Assembly: GCF_003074135.1 (NCBI RefSeq)
Contig: NZ_PPDK01000001.1
Span: 744,001-808,000, forward strand
Direction of reading: 5' to 3'
Source of the DNA: Euzebya tangerina
Lineage (GTDB): Bacteria > Actinomycetota > Nitriliruptoria > Euzebyales > Euzebyaceae
Length of the DNA stretch: 64,000 nt
Below, piece by piece: positions 16,739-36,542 of this stretch. Within the stretch, counting starts at the first letter, position 1. Every line of letters begins with the position of its first letter. A model generated the notes under the pieces. The model ran no database searches and had not been told where the DNA came from. It was given only the letters and a program-made list of their open reading frames with translations. A program made the translations under genes and the position numbers.

Positions 16739-18439
16739 TCAGCGGCGGTGCAGATCACGCGCGTAGAGAGGAACGCCGCCCTCGCCGGCGAGCCAGCGGG
16801 TCGCGGCTGCCAGTCTCTCTTCGAGTTGCTCGATCGTGGCGTCATCGACGCGGCGGATCCCGGTGGCCCTATTGAGCGTGGCGTTGACGTCGCGGAACTC
16901 GGTCTGGTGGCGGTACGCGATCCTGCGGGCGATGTCGCTGTTGCGCTTCTTCAGCGTCTCGCGGCGCCGGTGCGGCGGCTCCTCGAGAACGTCCCTGCTC
17001 TGGGCGGTGCTGGTGGCCAGGGTAGGCTGGGTAGAAGAGAGGGCCCGCTTTAGCCGGATGACCTCCGCGGCGTTCAGCTTGGCGAACTCTGGGTTGGCGG
17101 CGAGGAATTGCTCGGCCTCGGCGAGTGCGGCGCCGTCGAAGACCTCCCCGGAGGCGATCATTCCCTTCACGGTCGCGCGGGCGGCGATCGGGACGAAAGT
17201 GGTCGGCGGCGGGTCTTCCTCGTCGCGCGGGTCGGTGAGCGCGTCGGGGTCGTCGTCGAGGTCGTGGTCGCGCTCCTCCTCGATCCGGGCGGCGTTGTCG
17301 CGGAGCCGCGGGTCGGCGGGGATGAAGTAGTAGGCATCCTCGTGTTCGGTGTCGGTGTGGCGCACGATCCGGCCGACGGCCTGTCGGAAGAACAGTTCGG
17401 CGGTGGTGTTCGTGGCGTGAACGGCGACGCGGAGTCGCGGGATGTCGACGCCCTCGGAGACCATGCGGACCGCGACGATCCATGGTTCGTCGGACGTCGC
17501 GAACCGGTCGATGTGCTGCTGGGATGTGGGGTCGTCGGACACCGCGACGACGGCGTCGACGGCGTGGTCGTCGCGAATGATCCGCGCGATGGCGTGGGCG
17601 TGGTGCTGGTCGATTGCGAGGATGAGGCCGCCGGCGTCGGGCTGGTCGCTGCGGAGGCGCAGGAGGCAGTCGTGGGCTTCGCTGATGAGACGGCGTAGGT
17701 AGTTGCCGTCGGGCATGAGCGCGGTGCGGAGGCGGCGGCCCTGCTCGTTGTGCCATAGCGGTGTGTCGAAGTCGCACGAGATGGTCTCCCCGGGGCGGGA
17801 GCTCCACTCGAACTCGCCGTCGACGGTGGTGAAGAAGACACGCCGGCACGCCCCGTCGGCCACGGCTTGGCCGTACCCGTACGTGAAGTCGGGGTCTGAG
17901 GATTCGTCGGTGTAGCGGATGAACGGGATCGGGTTGGTGTCGCTGCGGAACGGTGTGCCGGACAGGGCGATGCGGTGCAGGGCGGGCGCGAAGGCGGTCC
18001 GGAGTGCGTCGCCCCAGCTGCGCTGCTCACCGCAGTGGTGGATCTCGTCGAACACCGCGACGGTGTCGGTCCTCGAGCAGTACATGGCGAACAGGCCGGG
18101 GTTGGAGGCCACCTGTGCGTAGGTGACGACGACGCCGCGGAAGTCGTTGGTCCAGGTGCCGTTGTGGTTGGCCCAGGCGGGGTTGAGGGCGATGTGGTGG
18201 GAGGCGTAGAGGCTGTTGGCCCACTGCTCGCGCAGGCGGGTGGAGGGGACGACGACGACGATCTGCTGGGCGGCGCCGTTCGTGAGGAGTGCCTCGAGGA
18301 CCGTGGCCGCCCAGCGTGTCTTGCCGGCGCCGGGCGTGGCGACGGCTAAGAAGTCCGAGGGCGGGGTGGGGTTGCGGTAGAGGTCGAGGGCCTGGCGTTG
18401 CCAGTCCCGCAGTGTCATGGTCGTGGTGCCGTGAGGCAT
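16739..18439 (-). CDS. SF2 DEAD/DEAH-box helicase (C-terminal part of an HNH-helicase gene)
   Basis: 566 residues. Superfamily 2 motifs in order: LRDWQRQALDLY (Q-like), ATPGAGKTRWA (Walker A, near residue 30), VVVTYAQVA, DEIHHCGEQ (DExH), LSGTPFRSD (motif III), MVSEGVDIPRLRVAVHAT (motif V) and FFRQAVGRIVRHTD (motif VI). The C-terminal third after about 420 is charged and helical and ends in GVPLYARDL. It resembles res-subunit-like helicases common in phage and mobile DNA. Immediately upstream, in the same frame without a start codon, the sequence encodes LCPPCNLTKGTT, the second half of an HNH finger, so the gene probably began further upstream (see 18454-18633). Confidence 0.85.
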   Translation of the reverse strand: MPHGTTTMTLRDWQRQALDLYRNPTPPSDFLAVATPGAGKTRWAATVLEALLTNGAAQQIVVVVPSTRLREQWANSLYASHHIALNPAWANHNGTWTNDFRGVVVTYAQVASNPGLFAMYCSRTDTVAVFDEIHHCGEQRSWGDALRTAFAPALHRIALSGTPFRSDTNPIPFIRYTDESSDPDFTYGYGQAVADGACRRVFFTTVDGEFEWSSRPGETISCDFDTPLWHNEQGRRLRTALMPDGNYLRRLISEAHDCLLRLRSDQPDAGGLILAIDQHHAHAIARIIRDDHAVDAVVAVSDDPTSQQHIDRFATSDEPWIVAVRMVSEGVDIPRLRVAVHATNTTAELFFRQAVGRIVRHTDTEHEDAYYFIPADPRLRDNAARIEEERDHDLDDDPDALTDPRDEEDPPPTTFVPIAARATVKGMIASGEVFDGAALAEAEQFLAANPEFAKLNAAEVIRLKRALSSTQPTLATSTAQSRDVLEEPPHRRRETLKKRNSDIARRIAYRHQTEFRDVNATLNRATGIRRVDDATIEQLEERLAAATRWLAGEGGVPLYARDLHRR

Positions 18440-18686: not shown

Positions 18687-20027
18687 GTGGCAACATACGA
18701 ACCATCACGCTTTCGTATTACGGTCAGCGCTGGAGAGGTCGACGAGCAGGTCGCGGTCCGGCCCTTGGTCGCCGTGACACGCAGCCATGCGTGGGACGCT
18801 GATGGCGGCTTCTTCGCTCCGCCCCTCGCTGGCTTTCACGCGCTCCCCAGCGACGAGGACTACGTCTGGTACGTGAGCGGTGAGCATCTGCGACCAGGCG
18901 CCGACACCGACGCACTGCTCGACCACTACCCCCCGGACTCTGACCTCGCGGCGATCGTGGCCGAGCGACCGGAGGTCGTGGTCCTGCCTCCGGAGTTCTT
19001 CCTGCACTGGGCAGACCGCTTCCCTAACGAGGCCTCCTGCGCCGACGAGGCGGTCTTTGAGTTCGTGGAGGAGTGGGGGCCGGTTGGCGGTGAATGGACA
19101 TCGACAGCCGAGGTCGACTACCAGCCGCGTGGATGGGGTGACTTCACCAACCCCGATGCGTTGTCGCCGGAGGAGCTTGAGGCCCTCTACGACGAAGGTG
19201 ACCCGGAGGTATACCTCGCCCTGCTCCCCTCGGACCAGCGCCTCGAATACGAGTTCCGCAACCGCGATCTGCCAGAAGACGAAGACCGGGCACGAGCAGA
19301 GATGCAGCGGCACTACGCCGAGGTCGAGAACGTCAGACGGACCTACCGAGGCGAGGCAGTCCGGCGCTGGTCGCGCAACGTCCGTACTCCCGAGCTCGCC
19401 GGCCCCTACGACGAGGAGCTCACGTGGTCTGAGGACCAACTCGCGCTGTACCACGGACTCTTGCCGCCCGACCGTGGGGACGACCCGCGGCACCTGCTGC
19501 CCACGCAGATGACGATCACACGTGGATACGCCTACGATGTCGACGGCATCAGGTCGACGCTCCTCGGGTTCGCCGCGCTGTTCGAGGCCTTCGCGCTTCT
19601 CGCTCCCAGCCACCTGACGGAGGCCGCGCTCGCACAGCCGCCTCCCGCCGAACTGGCCGACGCCTTCACCCGCCGAGGGCTGAGGCCGCCGGCCAGCACC
19701 TTCGAGCTGGTCTCGAAGATGCTGAGCGCGTTCAACGCCGGCGCCCGTGCAACCAGCCGCCTGGTGCTGACCAATGGTGAGGTCACCTACGGCCGAAGCC
19801 TCCCGGACACCCTTCACGGGACGCTCGCGCAGCTCCTTAGGTTCGCCAGCCATGGCACCCCGGCCCGACGCTGCCAGAACGAGACGTGTGGGCGGTTCTT
19901 CGGGCATCAGCAGGGCCGCGCCGAGAAGGGCCACAACCGCTCCGTCGGGGTCAAGTACTGCACGCCGCGATGCGCTCGGGCCCAAGCGTCGCGGGAGTGG
20001 CGTCGACGCCAACGTGACACCACCTGA
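18687..20027 (+). CDS. Zinc-finger protein with CGNR/DUF6076-like C-terminus, paralogue 1
   Basis: 446 residues; GTG start set by the leaderless promoter. The first 250 residues are acidic and not recognised. The C-terminal part after about 260 is helical, and the last 50 residues form a treble-clef-like zinc finger: CQNETCGRFF (C-x4-C) ... VKYCTPRCARAQASREWRRR (C-x3-C), the arrangement of CGNR-type and DUF6076 fingers that end in a basic helix. It is homologous to the next gene in that finger and in the opening FRIT motif. Probably a nucleic-acid-binding protein; function unknown. The divergent HNH-helicase gene starts 53 bases away. Confidence 0.75.
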   Translation: MATYEPSRFRITVSAGEVDEQVAVRPLVAVTRSHAWDADGGFFAPPLAGFHALPSDEDYVWYVSGEHLRPGADTDALLDHYPPDSDLAAIVAERPEVVVLPPEFFLHWADRFPNEASCADEAVFEFVEEWGPVGGEWTSTAEVDYQPRGWGDFTNPDALSPEELEALYDEGDPEVYLALLPSDQRLEYEFRNRDLPEDEDRARAEMQRHYAEVENVRRTYRGEAVRRWSRNVRTPELAGPYDEELTWSEDQLALYHGLLPPDRGDDPRHLLPTQMTITRGYAYDVDGIRSTLLGFAALFEAFALLAPSHLTEAALAQPPPAELADAFTRRGLRPPASTFELVSKMLSAFNAGARATSRLVLTNGEVTYGRSLPDTLHGTLAQLLRFASHGTPARRCQNETCGRFFGHQQGRAEKGHNRSVGVKYCTPRCARAQASREWRRRQRDTT

Positions 20028-20067
20028 ACTGTTTGGACCGATCACCGCTGCTCCTCCGCGTTGTACG

Positions 20068-20096
20068 TTGACGGGCGACACCGTGCCACGAATACT
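20068..20096 (+). promoter_or_regulatory. Leaderless promoter of the second zinc-finger paralogue
   Basis: TTGACG (20068-20073), 17 bases, AATACT (20091-20096), six bases, ATG 20103. The layout including the upstream TGTACGTTG (20062-20070) is position-for-position that of 18646-18680. Confidence 0.6.
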
Positions 20097-20102
20097 TGCT
20101 CC

Positions 20103-21278
20103 ATGTCGAGGGACGAACAGTCACATTTCCGTATCACTACGTGGCCGGACGCCGTTGAGGTTCCCCCGCTTGTCGGTGTTCCGCGGCTCCTTGCTGTCGT
20201 CGACAGCCAGTGGCCGGAGGAGCCCGACAACAAGGACTGGTGGATCGAGCTTGACGACGAGACCGGCGACTTCCAGCGACTTGAGATCGTCCCGGGCGCC
20301 CACGGCAGCCTTGACCTCGCCTATGTCGCCCGGCCGCTGTACGAGGGCTACCCCGATGTCGCTGACGGGCTCCGCAGGATCGGTGCTTCGGTCGACTGGC
20401 CGCCCGTGGCGGTCTTCTCCTCCTCAGAGGTCGAGCTCGTCGAGCTGCCTCACGAGCTCGTGTTCCGCGACTTCCTCGACGTCGACGTCGAGGACCTGAA
20501 CAGCGTGCTGAAGTGGTGCAGTCGGTACGGCCCTCTCGTTCCCCAGCGGCTCTACCTGCAGGCGGAGGAGTTCCGGCCCGTGATCGAGCCGCGCGCGAGC
20601 ACTGAGGACCCACTGGAGCTGCAGCTGTACGCCGGTGACGAACCGGACCTTACCGAGCACGAGATCGAGCTCGACGAGATGCCGGACCGACTCGGCGACT
20701 CTCCGGAGTCGTACGAGGGGACCTACCAAGCCTCCGCAGGGCCCGAGTTCCGGGCGGCCTACGGGACGGCGCTCGGCCAGCAGCAGGCGCACTTCCGGCT
20801 ATACCAGGCGGTCGTCAAGTCCTGGCTGGAGCTGCGTCCCGACACAGACCTCACACCCGCGGCGCTCCTCATCGCTCCTCGAGAGGAGTTGGCAGCACTC
20901 TGGGAATGCCGCGGGCTCCCTGTCCCGTCCACGGCCATCGAACTGATCCGGAGTATCCAGCGTTTGACGAACGTCGAGACCGTCCTGTCGCCCCGGATCG
21001 AGGTTGCGCCGCCGGGGGCAGAGCGCAGCGGCCTCGCGTTCGGTCGGCCGATCGCCCGGATCCTGCAGGCAATGATGCTGCAGGTCGTCGACTGGGTCGC
21101 CGCTGGCGTTCCAGCCAAGCAGTGCGCGAACGAGACGTGCGCGATGTGGTTCGCTCGGCAGTCAGGCCGGGCGGAGTACGGACAGTACCGCACCAAGGGG
21201 GTGCTGTATTGCTCAAGGGCCTGCGCCCGGGCGCAGGCACAGCGCGAGTACCGACGACGTCGCAAGCGCGACCAGTGA
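20103..21278 (+). CDS. Zinc-finger protein with CGNR/DUF6076-like C-terminus, paralogue 2
   Basis: 391 residues from ATG 20103; a TTG at 20061 lies upstream of the promoter and is rejected. Like its neighbour it opens with SHFRIT, has an acidic, poorly characterised middle, and ends in the finger CANETCAMWF ... VLYCSRACARAQAQREYRRRR. The finger is about as similar as expected of old paralogues, while the remaining sequence has diverged. Tandem paralogues with copied promoters suggest duplication followed by different specificity. Followed by a convergent CHAT-type gene pair with 122 bases between. Confidence 0.75.
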   Translation: MSRDEQSHFRITTWPDAVEVPPLVGVPRLLAVVDSQWPEEPDNKDWWIELDDETGDFQRLEIVPGAHGSLDLAYVARPLYEGYPDVADGLRRIGASVDWPPVAVFSSSEVELVELPHELVFRDFLDVDVEDLNSVLKWCSRYGPLVPQRLYLQAEEFRPVIEPRASTEDPLELQLYAGDEPDLTEHEIELDEMPDRLGDSPESYEGTYQASAGPEFRAAYGTALGQQQAHFRLYQAVVKSWLELRPDTDLTPAALLIAPREELAALWECRGLPVPSTAIELIRSIQRLTNVETVLSPRIEVAPPGAERSGLAFGRPIARILQAMMLQVVDWVAAGVPAKQCANETCAMWFARQSGRAEYGQYRTKGVLYCSRACARAQAQREYRRRRKRDQ

Positions 21279-21400: not shown

Positions 21401-22039
21401 CTAGATCATCATAATGGGTGAGGCGAGATCGAGGAAGGTGCGTGTGTCCTCGTATGCCGCGTACTCGGCCACCCTGTTGAGCCCTTCCTCCTCCAGGGTG
21501 TCGACGACGTCGGGCTGGGACCGGTGTGCCGTCGCGAAGAGGAACGCGTCATCGAAGCGGTCATGCGCAACCAGTCCGATAGCGAGCAGCGCACCGAACA
21601 CCGTCGCCGGGCGGAAGTGGACGGGCCACAGGTGGCCGGCGACCGCTTGCCGCCGCCCCGCGGCGGTGGCGGCGACACCGACTGTGGACGGGCCGCCGAG
21701 CGCTGTTACCGAAGCGCTGTCGCAGGTGTTGAGAACAAGGAGTCGGCGGCCGTTGTCGGGCGGTTGCATCGTTGCGAACTGAGACAGCGAAATGGTGAGT
21801 GCCTCCGTCAGGGCGACGGCGGTCTTGTCCGGTCTCCAGTGACCGAAGTGGGCATGCGACGACACCCACAGCACGTCCAGGTCCGAGGCGGTGTAGGCGT
21901 TGACGAAGTCCGCTCTTGTCCTCTGCGTCCCGTCGACGACGTCGACGTCGATGCCGGCACGGGTGAAGTTGTCAGAGACGGCCTCGACCTCGGCCTGACC
22001 CGTCAGCAGGTCGCCATGCCACAACTGCACGCGCCTCAC
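21401..22039 (-). CDS. CHAT-domain (caspase-like) protein, catalytic half
   Basis: 212 residues from GTG 22039, overlapping the upstream stop by 4 bases (GTGA). The caspase-like dyad is visible: VLWVSSHAHFGHW (His62 or His64) and LLVLNTCDSASV (Cys106), with the usual AVAGHLWPVHFRPATVFGALL stretch near the end. CHAT proteases are activated by partner sensors in several immune systems. The N-terminal strand normally preceding this region is encoded at the end of the upstream gene, so the CHAT fold is shared between two chains or is read through. Confidence 0.75.
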   Translation of the reverse strand: MRRVQLWHGDLLTGQAEVEAVSDNFTRAGIDVDVVDGTQRTRADFVNAYTASDLDVLWVSSHAHFGHWRPDKTAVALTEALTISLSQFATMQPPDNGRRLLVLNTCDSASVTALGGPSTVGVAATAAGRRQAVAGHLWPVHFRPATVFGALLAIGLVAHDRFDDAFLFATAHRSQPDVVDTLEEEGLNRVAEYAAYEDTRTFLDLASPIMMI

Positions 22040-23502
22040 AGGCCGGGCAGTGGAACCTCGTGGCTGACCACGAGAGGGACTGGGGCACTGGTCAACTCCT
22101 GGAGAACGGGACAGATCGGAAGGCGGTCATGCCCGATATGGACGAGCTCGGTACGGGGATCGGCACCCGCCAGGAGGGGTACCAAGAGATCGCGGTCGAC
22201 TGCGGCGCGGGTGACGGCTTCCAGGGTGGCCGCGTGTTCAGGGACCGGTCTGCCGACGTCCCTGTCGTCGGGTAGGGCCTCGAGAGCCGGTCCGTTGCCG
22301 GCGTCGATCTCCGACAGGCCCAGTGTCGTGTTCATTATCGTGGTCAGGTCGGCGGGTAGCGGGGTCGTAGCGGTGCCGGCAACGCTGCACCACAGCATCT
22401 GATGCGCGTCAATCCTGAAGGCCAGCAGCGGCGTCTCCAGCGGCTCTTCTTCGACGCCCGCCCGGGTGCGCAAGAGCGAGGCGACGAGGGCGGCGTCGCC
22501 CGCTTCTGCCAGGACTCTGGCCGCGGGGGCGAGGATCGGGAACAAACGGCCCCGCATGTGTGCCGCATCCTCAGACCCATTGGAGACGTTGCTGATGTGC
22601 GCGCTGGCGGCACGCGTCGCGGTGAGGAGTTCCTCCGCGCGACCGCAGGCCTCGTCTGCGTCCCCAGCAACGCCGTTGACCAAGAGCTGGAGCCGCTGAG
22701 GCGGCGTGATGTGAGCGTGCAGTTGGTTGAGGGCTTGATTCGCCAGGACCTTCACTGGCCGGTCGAGGTGCCTGCTGACCTTGCCGGTCAACTGAATAGC
22801 GAGTGCCACTCGTACCTCAGGGTCGAGGCCTTCATCGTCGGACAACCCGTCGAGGTGCGCTGTGATCGCGGGCACCGCGGGATGTCTCACCTGGTCCAGC
22901 ACCGTGGCTATGTCGCACGCCGGGATGAGCAGCGGCCCTGCCTCTAGCCGCAGCAAAGCGTCCGGGAGCCGGACGGCAACCTCCCTGGCCACGTCCTTCA
23001 TGTAGCCACCGGACCAGGCCAGATGGCAGACAGCCCCGGCCCAGAACCAGAACGGCTCTCTTGCGACCGTGTTGTGTACGGCGAGGACGTGGAGCGGACG
23101 GCCTACGTCGACATTGGCTGCGAACTCCTCGGGCATACCATCGATCATCGGCGCCACTGCCCAATGCCATGCGACGTCGAATCGTCCCGCCGACAAGGCC
23201 ATCATGAGCGGCGTACGGGAGGTGACCAGCCTCAACAGGTCCACTCCGGCCCTGACCACCGGGTCCTGGGGAAGCGGTGAGAGGTCACGGAGAAGGTCTG
23301 TAGCGACGCCTTCTAGGTGGTCGAGACCATCGTCCAGGTTCGTGCCCAACCATCCATCGATCGCAGCCGTCACAATCCTCAGCGATTGCGTGTCTGATAG
23401 GTCGACGGGCATGTCGGAGAGGCTCTGGAGGTGAGCCGTCAGGCTCGGTAGGAGCTCGTGGAGTGCTGCCATGCCCGCCAGTCTGACGGAGAGTCGCGGC
23501 AA
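22036..23502 (-). CDS. Helical protein ending in the first segment of a CHAT domain
   Basis: 488 residues (an internal ATG at residue 11 is also possible). The main part is alpha-helical, with no motif I recognise, perhaps a repeat-like sensor or scaffold. The last 50 residues, RTELVHIGHDRLPICPVLQ and PVPLVVSHEVPLPGL, have the look of the beginning of a CHAT domain (the lvhiphgplh-lP block before the catalytic half). The next gene supplies the catalytic residues and overlaps by 4 bases. Whether this is a natural split or an old frameshift cannot be decided here. Confidence 0.6.
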   Translation of the reverse strand: MPRLSVRLAGMAALHELLPSLTAHLQSLSDMPVDLSDTQSLRIVTAAIDGWLGTNLDDGLDHLEGVATDLLRDLSPLPQDPVVRAGVDLLRLVTSRTPLMMALSAGRFDVAWHWAVAPMIDGMPEEFAANVDVGRPLHVLAVHNTVAREPFWFWAGAVCHLAWSGGYMKDVAREVAVRLPDALLRLEAGPLLIPACDIATVLDQVRHPAVPAITAHLDGLSDDEGLDPEVRVALAIQLTGKVSRHLDRPVKVLANQALNQLHAHITPPQRLQLLVNGVAGDADEACGRAEELLTATRAASAHISNVSNGSEDAAHMRGRLFPILAPAARVLAEAGDAALVASLLRTRAGVEEEPLETPLLAFRIDAHQMLWCSVAGTATTPLPADLTTIMNTTLGLSEIDAGNGPALEALPDDRDVGRPVPEHAATLEAVTRAAVDRDLLVPLLAGADPRTELVHIGHDRLPICPVLQELTSAPVPLVVSHEVPLPGL

Positions 23503-24420: not shown

Positions 24421-26352
24421 TCAGGAAGGTTGGATCCCGGGCCGGTCGCGCCAACGGTTTCGCATACGGCGGAGGCGTTCGTTGTCGCGGTCGGTGTGGA
24501 CCTTGGAGAACTCCGGCCCGGTGGGGCAGTGGTACTTCCGGGCCGAGGCGGGGTCCTCGACGATGTCTCCGTCGAGTTGCTGCAGTACCAGTTGGGCGAT
24601 GCGTTGCCCGGGTGTCAACGACATCGGGACCTCGCTCAGGTTCACCAGCTCGAGGGTCAGCGATCCTTTGTAGTTGGGTTCAATGAACGTGGCGGTCGCC
24701 GTGACCAGCCCGAGTCTTCCGTAGGAGGATCGGGTGAGGACCTGCGCCGAAAGGTCGCCGGGCATCTTCAGGTACTCGAGGACGTGCGCCAGGACGAGCT
24801 CGTTGGGGTGCAGTACGAACGGCTGTCCCCACCGCTTCTGGGTATACGCCTGGATCGCGCGTGCTTCGGGTACCTTCTCCAAGGGGTTGAAGGCCTCGAT
24901 GCGGTTGGAGCGGAACAGGACGAACTTGTTGCCCAGCCGCAGGTCGACGCTCGCCGCCCCGATGCTCAGGTCCATCAGCGGAGTGATGACGAGACCCCTG
25001 TCAGGTCCTTGCTCGAGGCGCCGCCGAATTCCGGTGGAGCTCAGGGCGGCGCCCGCGATGTCGGTCAGGGGCGGGTCCGGATGCAGTTCCGGTTCCGTGC
25101 GGACGTCCGCCGGGTCGGTCGCTGCTTCCCACTGGCTGAGAAACTCGGTGACGTTGAGGGAGTAATTGACGAGATCGCTGACGGGGTATCGGGTCCCACG
25201 GTGGATGGCGACCCAGCCGCCGTTGAGGATGTCGGCGTCGTCGAGTACCTCCGCCTGCTCGGACCGGGTGGTCGGGAGGCCGTGCTCGACCCTGGCGGCG
25301 ACGCGCGCGACGTTGGCTGCTGCGGCGGCGGGGTCCCACCCCTTCACGTCCCAGTCCTTCACCGCGGCCATGATCTCCGTGGTCTGGCCTGAGACGTCCT
25401 GTGTGAGCAGTCGTGCCCATTCGTCGGGGAGTTCGTCGATCCGGCCCTCGAGGTCACGCCAAGGGGTGATCAATGGCTCCATGACGGCGGGCACGTCGGT
25501 GTCCTCCAGCCAGCTCACCATCGCCTGCAGGCGCAGCCAGGAGGGTGGATGGGTCTGGGTGTGGCCGTGCGCGGAGGCCGCATGCAGGAAGGATCCGAAG
25601 GCAGCGAGCGCCGCCGGCCCGAACCGGTGGATGCTGTAGGCGTCGCAGATCAGCTCCTCGATCCACGCCGTTCGCCATTCACTCAGGGTGCTGACCTTGA
25701 CGTCTCCGTCGACCCCCTCGGGGAGGGCCACCGTGTCGGCCTCCTCCTCGAAGGCCTCGGGGGTCGTGAATCGTTCGAGCGTCGGGCGTTCCCGTGTGGC
25801 GAGGTGGGCGACTTCGTGGCCCAGGAGGACCGGCCGCCAGGTCGAGGAGGCACCGGTGAGCCGGGGGACCTGGAGCAGCGCCATCGACGGTGTGCGCTGT
25901 ACGTCGGCTCCTTCGGCGGTCAGGTTGCTGAAGAGGATGTCCTCTAGTGAGCCGATGACGGTGCCGAAGTGGTCGGGGCGTCCGACCGTGACGACCGCGA
26001 TGCGGGTTCCCGACAGGAGTTCGTCGCAAGCCCGTTCCGCGGCAGCGGTCAGTGCGGGCGGCACCTCGGCCTCGACGGCGCGCAGAACGAAGTCGTCGAC
26101 CTTCTCCACTACGCGGTTGACGTGCTTGAGGAATCGCTCCGTCTGCAGCCGGCGGACGGTTGGCTGGCTCTCCCAGGTCTTGTGGAACGCGTCGCGGACC
26201 GCATCCGGGTAGGTGGCCACGAGCCCGAGCGCTGATCTTAGCCCCGCACGTGACTCATCGAGCCCGCCGAGGATGTCAGTGATGAGCCGCTCGTAGCCGT
26301 CCAGCCGGGACAGCAAGATGCGTCGGAGCTCGTCGGTGAGGGCATCGGCCAC
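24421..26352 (-). CDS. Metalloprotease - dCTP deaminase-like fusion protein
   Basis: 643 residues. The N-terminal 420 residues contain a zinc-protease signature, LLGHEVAHLA (H179-E180-x-x-H183) and, about 50 residues on, EELICDAYSIHRFGP, the usual EExxxDxxxxxxxGP third-ligand region. The C-terminal 210 residues form a dCTP deaminase/dUTPase-like domain: SVDLRLGNKFV, PFVLHPNELVLAHVLEYLKM, LTRSSYGRLGL, TATATFIEPNYKGSLTLEL with the catalytic-position Glu568, and LTPGQRIAQLVL. All visible deaminase key residues are kept. dCTP deaminases deplete dCTP as an antiphage defence. It lies 10 bases after a small partner gene, downstream of a perfect SOS box. Confidence 0.8.
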   Translation of the reverse strand: MADALTDELRRILLSRLDGYERLITDILGGLDESRAGLRSALGLVATYPDAVRDAFHKTWESQPTVRRLQTERFLKHVNRVVEKVDDFVLRAVEAEVPPALTAAAERACDELLSGTRIAVVTVGRPDHFGTVIGSLEDILFSNLTAEGADVQRTPSMALLQVPRLTGASSTWRPVLLGHEVAHLATRERPTLERFTTPEAFEEEADTVALPEGVDGDVKVSTLSEWRTAWIEELICDAYSIHRFGPAALAAFGSFLHAASAHGHTQTHPPSWLRLQAMVSWLEDTDVPAVMEPLITPWRDLEGRIDELPDEWARLLTQDVSGQTTEIMAAVKDWDVKGWDPAAAAANVARVAARVEHGLPTTRSEQAEVLDDADILNGGWVAIHRGTRYPVSDLVNYSLNVTEFLSQWEAATDPADVRTEPELHPDPPLTDIAGAALSSTGIRRRLEQGPDRGLVITPLMDLSIGAASVDLRLGNKFVLFRSNRIEAFNPLEKVPEARAIQAYTQKRWGQPFVLHPNELVLAHVLEYLKMPGDLSAQVLTRSSYGRLGLVTATATFIEPNYKGSLTLELVNLSEVPMSLTPGQRIAQLVLQQLDGDIVEDPASARKYHCPTGPEFSKVHTDRDNERLRRMRNRWRDRPGIQPS

Positions 26353-28034: not shown

Positions 28035-28664
28035 TCAGGGGCAGGTGAGAACCGGTTCCATCTTGATGATGTCGGGAAACCCGATCACGTGAACAGTGTC
28101 GCCGCCCACGGCGATGGAGCCGGCCTCGGCGCGCTGGAGGGGCCCGCAGTGGTGGTCCCTGTCTGTCGTCACCAGCACCAGTCTCTCCTCCGGGGGCCCT
28201 GGCCACGGATCGGTCCAGCCGATGAGGACGGCAGCGCCCAGAAGCACGACCCCGGTGACGACGAGGCCACGGCCGAGTCGGATCTGATCCCGGGCGGTGT
28301 CGCCCGCCTTCCTTCGCGCGGCGGCCAGTGCGATGAGGCTCGAGGGGCGCGGCGTGGACTTAAGCGAGCCATGTGCCGCGGACATGGCCGCGAGCAACCC
28401 GCCGGTCGCCGTGGCGGCCGAGAGCACGAGGAGCACACCGGCGACACTGCGTGTTGTGCCACTCAGCCTCTCCGCGCCCAAGGGGCCGCCGACCAACCCG
28501 ATCGCGGTCGCTAGGCCGACGATGAGACGGGCTCCTTCAACCCATCCCTTCGCGATCGTGCGGAGCGTCGCCAGGTAGGCGGCGTCGTGTTGGTGCAGAC
28601 GCGCCGCCAGCGCGATCTGCTCCGCGGTTGCCTGCCCGTGGAACTCAACCGCCAACGGCACCAC
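28035..28664 (-). CDS. Membrane protein paired with a zinc-ribbon protein
   Basis: 209 residues if translation starts at GTG 28664, inside the end of the preceding gene. It has a short helical N-terminus (EQIALAARLHQHDAAYLATL), then at least three hydrophobic segments (ARLIVGLATAIGLVGGPLG, VAGVLLVLSAATATGGLLA and LVVTGVVLLGAAVLIGW), and an external-looking tail. The fit with the upstream gene, which lacks a proper end, suggests one original zinc-ribbon/membrane protein broken by an indel near 28660. Role unknown; such fusions occur in conflict islands. Confidence 0.6.
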   Translation of the reverse strand: MVPLAVEFHGQATAEQIALAARLHQHDAAYLATLRTIAKGWVEGARLIVGLATAIGLVGGPLGAERLSGTTRSVAGVLLVLSAATATGGLLAAMSAAHGSLKSTPRPSSLIALAAARRKAGDTARDQIRLGRGLVVTGVVLLGAAVLIGWTDPWPGPPEERLVLVTTDRDHHCGPLQRAEAGSIAVGGDTVHVIGFPDIIKMEPVLTCP

Positions 28665-29010
28665 CGTCCCGCATGATCGCTGCGGCCCCACAGCCACCTT
28701 TGGTGCCGGAAGGGCGTCCAGGGTGCTCGACCCTGCACAGGCATGCGACGGTGAACCGCATCGGTCCCCGCCACTTGTCACGCGGCCGGGAGTTGTCAGC
28801 AGTGGCCCCGGCGGCGACCGCTTCGATGGTGATGTCGTCGTTGCGGATCTCCTGCTCGAAGACGTCATCGCACCGCGGGCAGGTGCCGGCGACCACCACG
28901 ACGCGGTTCTCGCGATCCACCTGAACCGATCCCACAAGCGCCCTCGCCCACTCTTCGCTGTCGTTCATGTTGGCGAAGGTCTGGTACTGGACGGGGTCGT
29001 TCGCGGGCAA
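28645..29010 (-). CDS. Zinc-ribbon protein with CxC-HPGRP-GCGA motif
   Basis: 121 residues from ATG 29010. An N-terminal ribbon CPRCDDVF is followed by ACLCRVEHPGRPSGTKGGCG, a Cys/His motif that I associate with effector-associated conflict proteins and that normally continues into membrane segments. Here the frame ends 12 residues later, while the neighbouring frame supplies those segments, overlapping by 20 bases. Either two overlapping genes or a single frameshifted gene. Metal binding is inferred from the cysteines only. Confidence 0.6.
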   Translation of the reverse strand: MPANDPVQYQTFANMNDSEEWARALVGSVQVDRENRVVVVAGTCPRCDDVFEQEIRNDDITIEAVAAGATADNSRPRDKWRGPMRFTVACLCRVEHPGRPSGTKGGCGAAAIMRDGGAVGG

Positions 29011-34083: not shown

Positions 34084-34800
34084 ATGATGCCGACAACCAG
34101 CCGAGTGCCAGACACCGACCCCAGCCATGGCGGCCCACCGGCCTTGCCAGGTAAGGACGGCTCAGCCCGGGCATCGTCGCCGTCGGCGAGACCCGGTCCG
34201 GTGCTAGCCTCTGCCCCGAAGGTCGGGCGGATACGGGATCGCGGGTTGAGCGCAGGACAGCGAGCAGGCGAGGGCGGCGAGGATCTGAACGACCTGGCTG
34301 TCCGGGCACGATCGGGCGACACCCAGGCGCTGGACCGGCTACTTGAACGCATCGATGCTGACGGGCTGGTCCGGGTTCCCGTCCGGCGAATCATCACCGA
34401 CCGCACCACCGTCGAGGACGTCTGCCAAGACCTGCTCATCATCGTCGCCGAACGCATCGATCGGTGGGACGGCCGCAGCCGGTTCACGACCTGGCTGTAT
34501 GCGGTGGCCAGAAACCGGGCCATCGACACGATCCGTCGAAACCGACCGACCGAACAACTACCCGCCGAGCTGCCACGCGAACAGCAGCGGGTCAGCTCGC
34601 TGATCGCGGACCGGCTCCGAGTCGACGAAGCACTAGCGGACCTGCCCGACAACTACCGCCAACCCGTGGTGCTGCGAGACGTTGACCAGCATGACTATGA
34701 CGAAATCGCAGCCATGCTCGACCTGCATCCGGCAACCGTCCGGACCCGGGTGTCACGAGGACGGGCCATGGTGGCAGCACGATGGAGGCGTGAGGGATGA
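34084..34800 (+). CDS. RNA polymerase sigma factor (sigma-70 family, ECF-like)
   Basis: 238 residues from ATG 34084; the true start may be later, because the first 80 residues are a Pro/Ser/Arg-rich tail with no family match. Region 2: LNDLAVRARSGDTQALDRLL, TTVEDVCQDLLIIVAERIDR, TTWLYAVARNRAIDTIRR. Region 4: VDEALADLPDNYRQPVVLRD, YDEIAAMLDLHPATVRTRVS and RGRAMV. The ATGA overlap with the following kinase gene means the two are co-translated, so the kinase may act on this factor or its regulators. No anti-sigma gene is beside it. Confidence 0.87.
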   Translation: MMPTTSRVPDTDPSHGGPPALPGKDGSARASSPSARPGPVLASAPKVGRIRDRGLSAGQRAGEGGEDLNDLAVRARSGDTQALDRLLERIDADGLVRVPVRRIITDRTTVEDVCQDLLIIVAERIDRWDGRSRFTTWLYAVARNRAIDTIRRNRPTEQLPAELPREQQRVSSLIADRLRVDEALADLPDNYRQPVVLRDVDQHDYDEIAAMLDLHPATVRTRVSRGRAMVAARWRREG

Positions 34801-36542
34801 CCGAGAGACTCCAAGGCCGGTACCGCATCACCGAGCTGTTGGGCAGCGGCGCCTTCGCCACCGTCCACAAAGCCCACGACGAGCAACTCGATGACTGGGT
34901 TGCCATCAAGATCCTGGCGCACAATCACAGCGTCAACCCCGAGATGCGCGGCCGGTTCATCGCCGAAGGACAGATCCTGCGCCGACTGCAGTCCCCCCAC
35001 ATCCTGCAGGTCCACGACCTTGCCGAGACCGACGACGGCCGCCCCTACCTGGTCACCCAACTTGCCGACCGTGGCACCCTACGAGCCCGTGTACAGCAGG
35101 CACGCGCCGACGGGTGGACGGTGGATGACCAGTCGCTGCTCCCCGTCGCTCAAGCCCTGGCCTTCGGCATCGACACCCTGGCCGCAGCCCAAGTTGTCCA
35201 CCGCGATCTCTCCCCCTCCAACCTTCTGCTGACCACAGCCCCCGCCGACCCCAACGGCTCATCCGACCAGCTGGTCGGAGCAGACGAACGCCTCATCATC
35301 GCTGACCTTGGGTTCTGCAAAGACCTGGCACTCAGCAGCGGCATCTCCGCCACCGGCGGCACCGACGGGTTCGCCCCACCCGAACAACACACCCTGGGCG
35401 CAGCAGTGGACGTCCGATCCGACCTCTGGGCCGCCTCAGCCGTGCTGCACTGGATCGCAACAGGCCACACCCCCAAGCGAGCACCCATCGCAGAGCGGGC
35501 CATGATCACCGCAGGCCTGACACCCGCGTTCGCCCACGCCGTCGCCGAGGGCCTCCACGACCACCCGGCCGAGCGACCCACCTCTGCCGACGCATGGATT
35601 GGCGCCATCACCTCTGCCGCAAGACCCGCCGGAGCCGGCACAACCACAACCGGCACGGACGATCGAACAGCAGCAGTACGCACCCGGCCGCACCTCATGA
35701 TCGCCGCCGTTGCAGCGATCTTGCTGCTCGGCTTGGCCACCCAAGTCCTCGGCAACGATGAACTCCCGCCCGCATCGGTGACCATCCCCGGCACCGCCGC
35801 CGAGGCTGCACAGAACGAGGCACCACCCGTGCCCATCGACGAAGACGTCGAGAACGACACCCAACCCACAGGGTCGACACCAACCATCCAACCCTCGGCC
35901 GCACCAACCGGGGAAGAGTCCACCGAGCAGGAGCCAACAGCGCCGCCGCTACCCATCGATGTCGGCACCCCAGTAGGCGGCACCTGGTCCTTCCACATCG
36001 TCAACCGCAACGATTGGGAGTACGACGTCGAGGTGACCATCAGCGCCGCCTACGGGTTTGACAAAACCACCAGTGACTCCGGCCCCGGCGATGCCCGAAC
36101 GGTCACGGCAGTCGATGGCGGCTACGAGTTCACAGCCATCCCAACCATCACCGACCGCGACTCACCAGAAGTAGACCAGGCATCCGCAACCGCGCGCTTC
36201 GGCAACGACATCCTCACCGGCGCTCTCGGTGCCGACCCCTGCCCATCAGAAATTTGGAACCAAACGGGCGGCACCGACTACGGCATCTACTGCCTCCTCG
36301 ATGAGGGGCATGACAGCCAAAGCAGCGGCGAATCCTGGACCACCCGCCCCGAAACCGACATCGACAACATGCTCGCCACCATGCAAGACCGCGACCCCAT
36401 CGCCTACTCCTTCGACATCAGCACCTGCGAGATCTGGCTACTGCCCAACGGCGACGTCATGCCCGCCACACGCGGCAACAACTGCGACATCACCGGCCGC
36501 ACCGTCATCCCCGAAGGCACACCCGGAGGACTCGACCGCTAG
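34797..36542 (+). CDS. Receptor-type Ser/Thr protein kinase
   Basis: 581 residues. Kinase domain (about 7-270): LLGSGAFATV glycine loop, VAIK (Lys38), VVHRDLSPSNLLL (catalytic Asp137), IADLGF (Mg-binding Asp170, in the bacterial DLG-like form) and GFAPPEQ. A Thr-rich juxtamembrane stretch, one membrane segment (about 300-318), then an external domain of about 260 residues with a Pro/Glu/Thr-rich stalk and a C-terminal beta-rich part carrying two or three cysteine pairs. HRDLSPSN replaces the usual HRDLKPxN, a change also seen in active kinases. Coupled to the sigma factor by a 4-base overlap. Confidence 0.88.
   Translation: MTERLQGRYRITELLGSGAFATVHKAHDEQLDDWVAIKILAHNHSVNPEMRGRFIAEGQILRRLQSPHILQVHDLAETDDGRPYLVTQLADRGTLRARVQQARADGWTVDDQSLLPVAQALAFGIDTLAAAQVVHRDLSPSNLLLTTAPADPNGSSDQLVGADERLIIADLGFCKDLALSSGISATGGTDGFAPPEQHTLGAAVDVRSDLWAASAVLHWIATGHTPKRAPIAERAMITAGLTPAFAHAVAEGLHDHPAERPTSADAWIGAITSAARPAGAGTTTTGTDDRTAAVRTRPHLMIAAVAAILLLGLATQVLGNDELPPASVTIPGTAAEAAQNEAPPVPIDEDVENDTQPTGSTPTIQPSAAPTGEESTEQEPTAPPLPIDVGTPVGGTWSFHIVNRNDWEYDVEVTISAAYGFDKTTSDSGPGDARTVTAVDGGYEFTAIPTITDRDSPEVDQASATARFGNDILTGALGADPCPSEIWNQTGGTDYGIYCLLDEGHDSQSSGESWTTRPETDIDNMLATMQDRDPIAYSFDISTCEIWLLPNGDVMPATRGNNCDITGRTVIPEGTPGGLDR

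Follow-up and report, generated by a model that had tools for sequence, protein, structure and literature searches.

Does a CHAT protease that is divided over two overlapping reading frames still work, as two chains, or is it a single-chain gene that has been broken? The question is raised by a locus in a 64,000-nucleotide stretch of the Euzebya tangerina genome (contig NZ_PPDK01000001.1, positions 744,001 to 808,000), referred to below as the window, whose own numbering is used throughout. The first-pass annotation of this DNA had seen one CHAT gene distributed over two ORFs and had offered two accounts, namely two chains forming one active site and a frameshifted single gene, with a suggested link to immunity.

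Identity of the two overlapping ORFs

Both ORFs are on the minus strand and lie, together with their GTGA overlap, exactly where the first-pass annotation had placed them. The first (22036-23502) encodes 488 amino acids when read from a TTG at 23502; an ATG at 23472 fits the start of the relatives better and gives a first half of 478 amino acids (22036-23472), predicted to comprise a helical arm and the subdomain preceding the catalytic unit. The second (21401-22039) has a GTG start and encodes 212 amino acids, predicted to form a complete caspase-like CHAT protease unit. The stop of the first ORF overlaps the start of the second at 22036-22039. The proposed catalytic residues, His62 (codon 21854-21856) and Cys106 (codon 21722-21724), are both encoded by the second ORF, and the pair was invariant in alignments of three sequences, of 11 sequences and of 17 rows.

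The two ORFs match a single PADLOC profile, BovA of the Borvo anti-phage system, the first at positions 74-488 of 711 (E-value 3.8e-14) and the second at positions 494-679 of 711 (E-value 4e-56). Coverage is consecutive over positions 74-679, a match along the length of the profile as in Borvo, and another Borvo feature, a CHAT domain at the C-terminus that bears the His and the Cys, is present. The second ORF also matches positions 105-241 of 289 in the Pfam CHAT profile (PF12770; E-value 1.7e-9). Pfam had no match for the first ORF, and NCBIfam had none for the BovA proteins. Because both ORFs match one PADLOC profile, and do so consecutively, they are by sequence the two halves of a single BovA (Borvo) gene. 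Borvo is one gene and one chain, whereas the halves in the window are in different frames. The suspected division of one CHAT gene over two ORFs is thereby borne out, and the link to immunity takes the concrete form of a PADLOC match to a defence system.

Sixteen further complete BovA genes were aligned together with the window (17 rows). They are from Streptomyces (L004 and L005 in our numbering of loci), other members of the same order (L035, L036), Bacteroidota (L006, L007, L009, L012, L064), Proteobacteria (L008, L010, L011, L013), a phage contig (L021) and Priestia plasmids (L032, L033). The L005 protein was also found on plasmid NZ_CP108854; the L002 protein is the same (100%), and the two entered the count as one. 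For L064, the protein used was the longest stretch between two stops at that locus. All six relatives scanned with PADLOC (L032, L033, L005, L007, L011 and L021) matched BovA, and the others were assigned by alignment.

In one sample, 32 of 391 genomes had a match at E ≤ 0.001, and only the four below 1e-15 (G423, G710, G761, G529) were accepted as BovA. Two further searches at E ≤ 1e-15 gave matches in 2 of 395 and 1 of 398 genomes, with one new gene (L064). Among genomes of the class and phylum around the window's own, 6 of 66 and 7 of 396 matched, the window's own being the only strong match and the others weak CHAT matches in longer ORFs. The phage and E. coli collections contained no BovA match, and none of seven stretches was confirmed in a first scan of viral contigs with the window protein.

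Position of the cut in the modelled fold

A single-chain Streptomyces relative, modelled with 11 sequences (pLDDT 81, pTM 0.76), has helices over residues 1-341 followed by a mixed region, and the loop equivalent to the window's cut directly precedes a strand at 485-490. The best match of the whole model was TPR-CHAT of type III-E CRISPR (7y84_C, Z 20.2, 542 aligned residues, rmsd 8.1, 9% identity). The part matched by separase (ctSPD) and gingipain begins at about residue 277-330, and that matched by SAVED-CHAT and the listed caspases at 482-484, except that the alignment of one caspase-6 row begins at 347. When modelled alone, the second chain of the window formed a complete caspase-like unit (pLDDT 75, pTM 0.78), to which caspases align from residue 1 onward and SAVED-CHAT from residue 2 onward; the best match of this chain was SAVED-CHAT (8tl0_C, Z 15.3, 165 residues, rmsd 2.5).

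In these models, the cut separates the helical arm and the preceding subdomain from the entire catalytic unit. The first ORF would thus contain the helical arm and a region whose counterpart in separase and gingipain immediately precedes the catalytic unit; we take this counterpart to be the pseudo-protease domain in the former and the A/B subdomains in the latter. Whether the gene is broken or working, the models put the border of an independent caspase-like unit at the cut.

The proposal that two chains form one active site fails at this point, because His62, Cys106 and the whole unit that superposes on caspases are on the second chain; a shared active site was ruled out. Contacts between the two chains may matter for control.

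Broken gene or working split

With moderate confidence, we consider a recently disrupted single-chain BovA gene the most likely reading, and a working two-chain Borvo its main rival. The first-pass annotation had named alignment with fused CHAT homologues as a check, with single-chain homologues counting against two chains. In this alignment, all 16 complete relatives were single chains (677-760 residues as cut here) that align straight through the window's cut; a frameshifted single gene had rightly been offered. The loop at the junction, first seen to be ungapped in 10 relatives, is ungapped and of the same length in 16 of 16, and the window alone has a one-residue gap and a frame change there, which makes it net four bases short (one codon plus the frame). 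This argues for a small deletion as the origin of the split, and since the shortfall is net four bases, a real deletion is favored over the one-base error usual for reads.

Other features also point to disruption. The residue after the catalytic His is Gly in all 16 complete relatives and Ala63 in the window (codon 21851-21853), a change from HG to HA that is unique among the 17 rows. Inspection of the sequence upstream of the GTG start found no ribosome-binding-like motif at the normal distance, the nearest GAGG ending 16 bases upstream. Broken BovA copies recur, moreover, in other loci: L003 (plasmid pRSB223, 8622-10654) shifts frame near residue 155, L014 is a remnant, and L037 is without its N-terminal half and has one TAG and a frame change. 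None of the 19 other BovA loci (16 complete and 3 broken) is divided at the window's position. The record of pRSB223 annotates its BovA as two hypothetical proteins and does not recognize it as BovA.

Some observations are harder to reconcile with a broken gene. Apart from the junction, the pair is intact over 2.1 kb. The window breaks 2 of 27 columns that are invariant in other lineages, which is the usual rate (each of the seven other lineages tested breaks 0-4 of 25-29). The divergence ratio of chain 2 to chain 1 is 0.58 and lies within the range of the eight of 16 relatives for which it is given (0.56-0.67), so chain 2 has no extra decay. The cut coincides exactly with the beginning of the caspase-like unit, and it comes with a start-stop overlap.

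The weight of this overlap depends on its chance level, for which we made our own counts. After a shift by one or four lost bases, a TGA of the new frame corresponds to an NTG codon and the next A in the old one, and start-stop overlaps therefore arise easily. Of all shifts simulated in nine gene sequences, 44% ended in ATGA, GTGA or TTGA, and 7% stopped within two codons. Both properties together were found for 88 of 2451 shifts (3.6%) simulated in four intact actinobacterial relatives. The GTGA overlap is thus mild, not strong, evidence for selected coupling. A programmed frameshift was also considered and set aside, as nothing pointed to one.

A working two-chain Borvo, in which sensor arm and caspase-like protease would be made from one mRNA by stop and restart at the GTGA and would then reassemble, with control by assembly, is a serious possibility that falls short of being likely. 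In its favor, the cut lies exactly between two structural units, without loss of a conserved residue, the model of the second chain by itself has a complete caspase-like fold, and conservation is normal in both halves. A possible two-gene precedent in Streptococcus thermophilus has moreover been described (PMC12322248). These points have to be set against the lack of the arrangement in any of the 19 other BovA loci, the ease with which such shifts produce a start-stop overlap anyway, the change from HG to HA at the active site, and the GTG without a well-placed ribosome-binding motif. We put forward only tentatively that the pair functions as a free catalytic chain with a separate sensor chain, coupled through the GTGA, so that the alarm would be armed by assembly and not by release within one chain. 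The present sequence and model data do not separate recent loss from a working split.

An error of sequencing or assembly, with an uninterrupted gene in the living cell, is a rather unlikely origin of the split. That the gene is conserved elsewhere and has just one lesion would fit such an error, but the four-base shortfall in a loop whose length is fixed in all 16 relatives speaks against it. So does a weak test of the assembly, in which 30 kb of this genome, set against two others of its genus, had no clear frameshift: over about 18.6 kb of homologous sequence, near a ribosomal protein operon, 51 of 55 relative ORFs were matched in one frame, and the other four were unresolved, at places prone to shadow ORFs. 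That two unrelated genes adjoin by chance is extremely improbable, since the separateness of the ORFs and the missing Pfam match of the first are outweighed by one profile over both ORFs and by fused relatives that align across the junction.

Mechanism, surroundings and comparison with known systems

Published accounts call the mechanism of Borvo unknown or poorly understood and name abortive infection as a potential one (PMC10482375, PMC11201134). Phage DNA polymerase mutations are reported to allow escape from Borvo (PMC11348598), and CHAT in type III-E CRISPR to cleave Csx30 and induce abortive infection (PMC10952713). From the polymerase escape mutations and the behavior of the type III-E CHAT, that is, from papers on other members, we infer that intact BovA would be a one-protein alarm, whose helical N-terminal arm would sense infection by a replication-linked cue, and that sensing would free the C-terminal caspase-like CHAT protease. 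The freed protease would stop the infection, probably through death or arrest of the cell.

If the gene is disrupted, the deletion in the loop leading into the protease unit would end the sensing arm at a stop codon, and the protease would be made only as a separate chain, through restart at the overlapping GTG. With the covalent link lost and the Gly beside the catalytic His replaced, it would most likely be inactive or poorly controlled. Together with the three broken copies among the 19 other loci, a broken gene in the window would mean that small lesions are a frequent cause of loss of Borvo genes, as may be expected of a costly suicide defense. A working two-chain gene would instead be a natural way to separate the sensing step of Borvo from its protease.

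The neighbors of BovA in the window include a helicase, a dCTP deaminase fusion, a TrwC relaxase and a protein kinase resembling PD-T4-6, and they suit a mobile or defense region. The neighborhood is not conserved, and this candidate feature was rejected: the only match between neighbors in the window and in the relatives' loci is that of two upstream ABC-type ORFs to one ORF of L008. BovA therefore stands alone here as elsewhere, and the neighbors do not support a multi-gene system.

Several of the surrounding genes merit a description of their own. For the supposed HNH-helicase (16739-18439), the helicase part held (Pfam ResIII/DEAD/helicase-C) and the HNH part did not, with no HNH family at E ≤ 1. 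The dCTP deaminase assignment at 24421-26352 (minus strand) was confirmed by Pfam and by NCBIfam (132 bits, cut-off 92.8). In this protein of 643 amino acids, the deaminase domain is C-terminal (residues 437-617), behind some 430 residues in which a HEVAH motif occurs; without a PADLOC match, it is possibly a defense-type deaminase fused to a metalloprotease-like part. Two adjacent plus-strand genes (18687-20027 and 20061-21278) have products whose Cys-rich tails resemble one another, and the two look like copies that have diverged; neither product matched Pfam or PADLOC, and that of 18687-20027 did not match NCBIfam either. The Ser/Thr protein kinase (34797-36542, plus strand) matched many PADLOC PD-T4-6 models (best E-value 1.8e-42), and could be an ordinary kinase. 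At 28035-29010 (minus strand), two overlapping ORFs of 300 and 121 amino acids may represent another frame-split gene. In the phage contig (L021:733-10682), portal- and terminase-like genes (P2-like by sequence) adjoin a cluster of SIR2-TPR, BovA and PDC-S06 ATPase genes, a putative defense cargo spot.

Among known systems, SAVED-CHAT, a CBASS effector, is the best match of the second chain alone. SAVED-CHAT is activated by a cyclic nucleotide via its fused SAVED domain, and Pfam found no SAVED domain in the window proteins. TPR-CHAT (Csx29) of type III-E CRISPR (Craspase) is the best structural match of the whole model; unlike the window's pair, Csx29 is a single chain and works bound to Cas7-11, and no Cas7-11 partner gene was found by Pfam or PADLOC among the main neighbors scanned, a part of the window's ORFs.

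A two-gene Borvo-like arrangement is already in print. The system is annotated as two BovA subunits and is reported to protect S. thermophilus against Vansinderenvirus phages (PMC12322248). The likeness to the window is in the two genes annotated as BovA, and a difference is that activity was shown for the S. thermophilus system. In the accessible portions of the literature on Borvo and BovA, we came across no BovA divided at the window's junction.

The closest known system is Borvo itself (BovA, PADLOC PDLC03832). The window differs from it by two ORFs in place of one, by Ala for Gly after the catalytic His, and by a loop that is one residue shorter; it shares with Borvo the sequence over nearly the whole length, the domain order, the His/Cys pair, and the occurrence as a stand-alone gene in mobile or defense settings.
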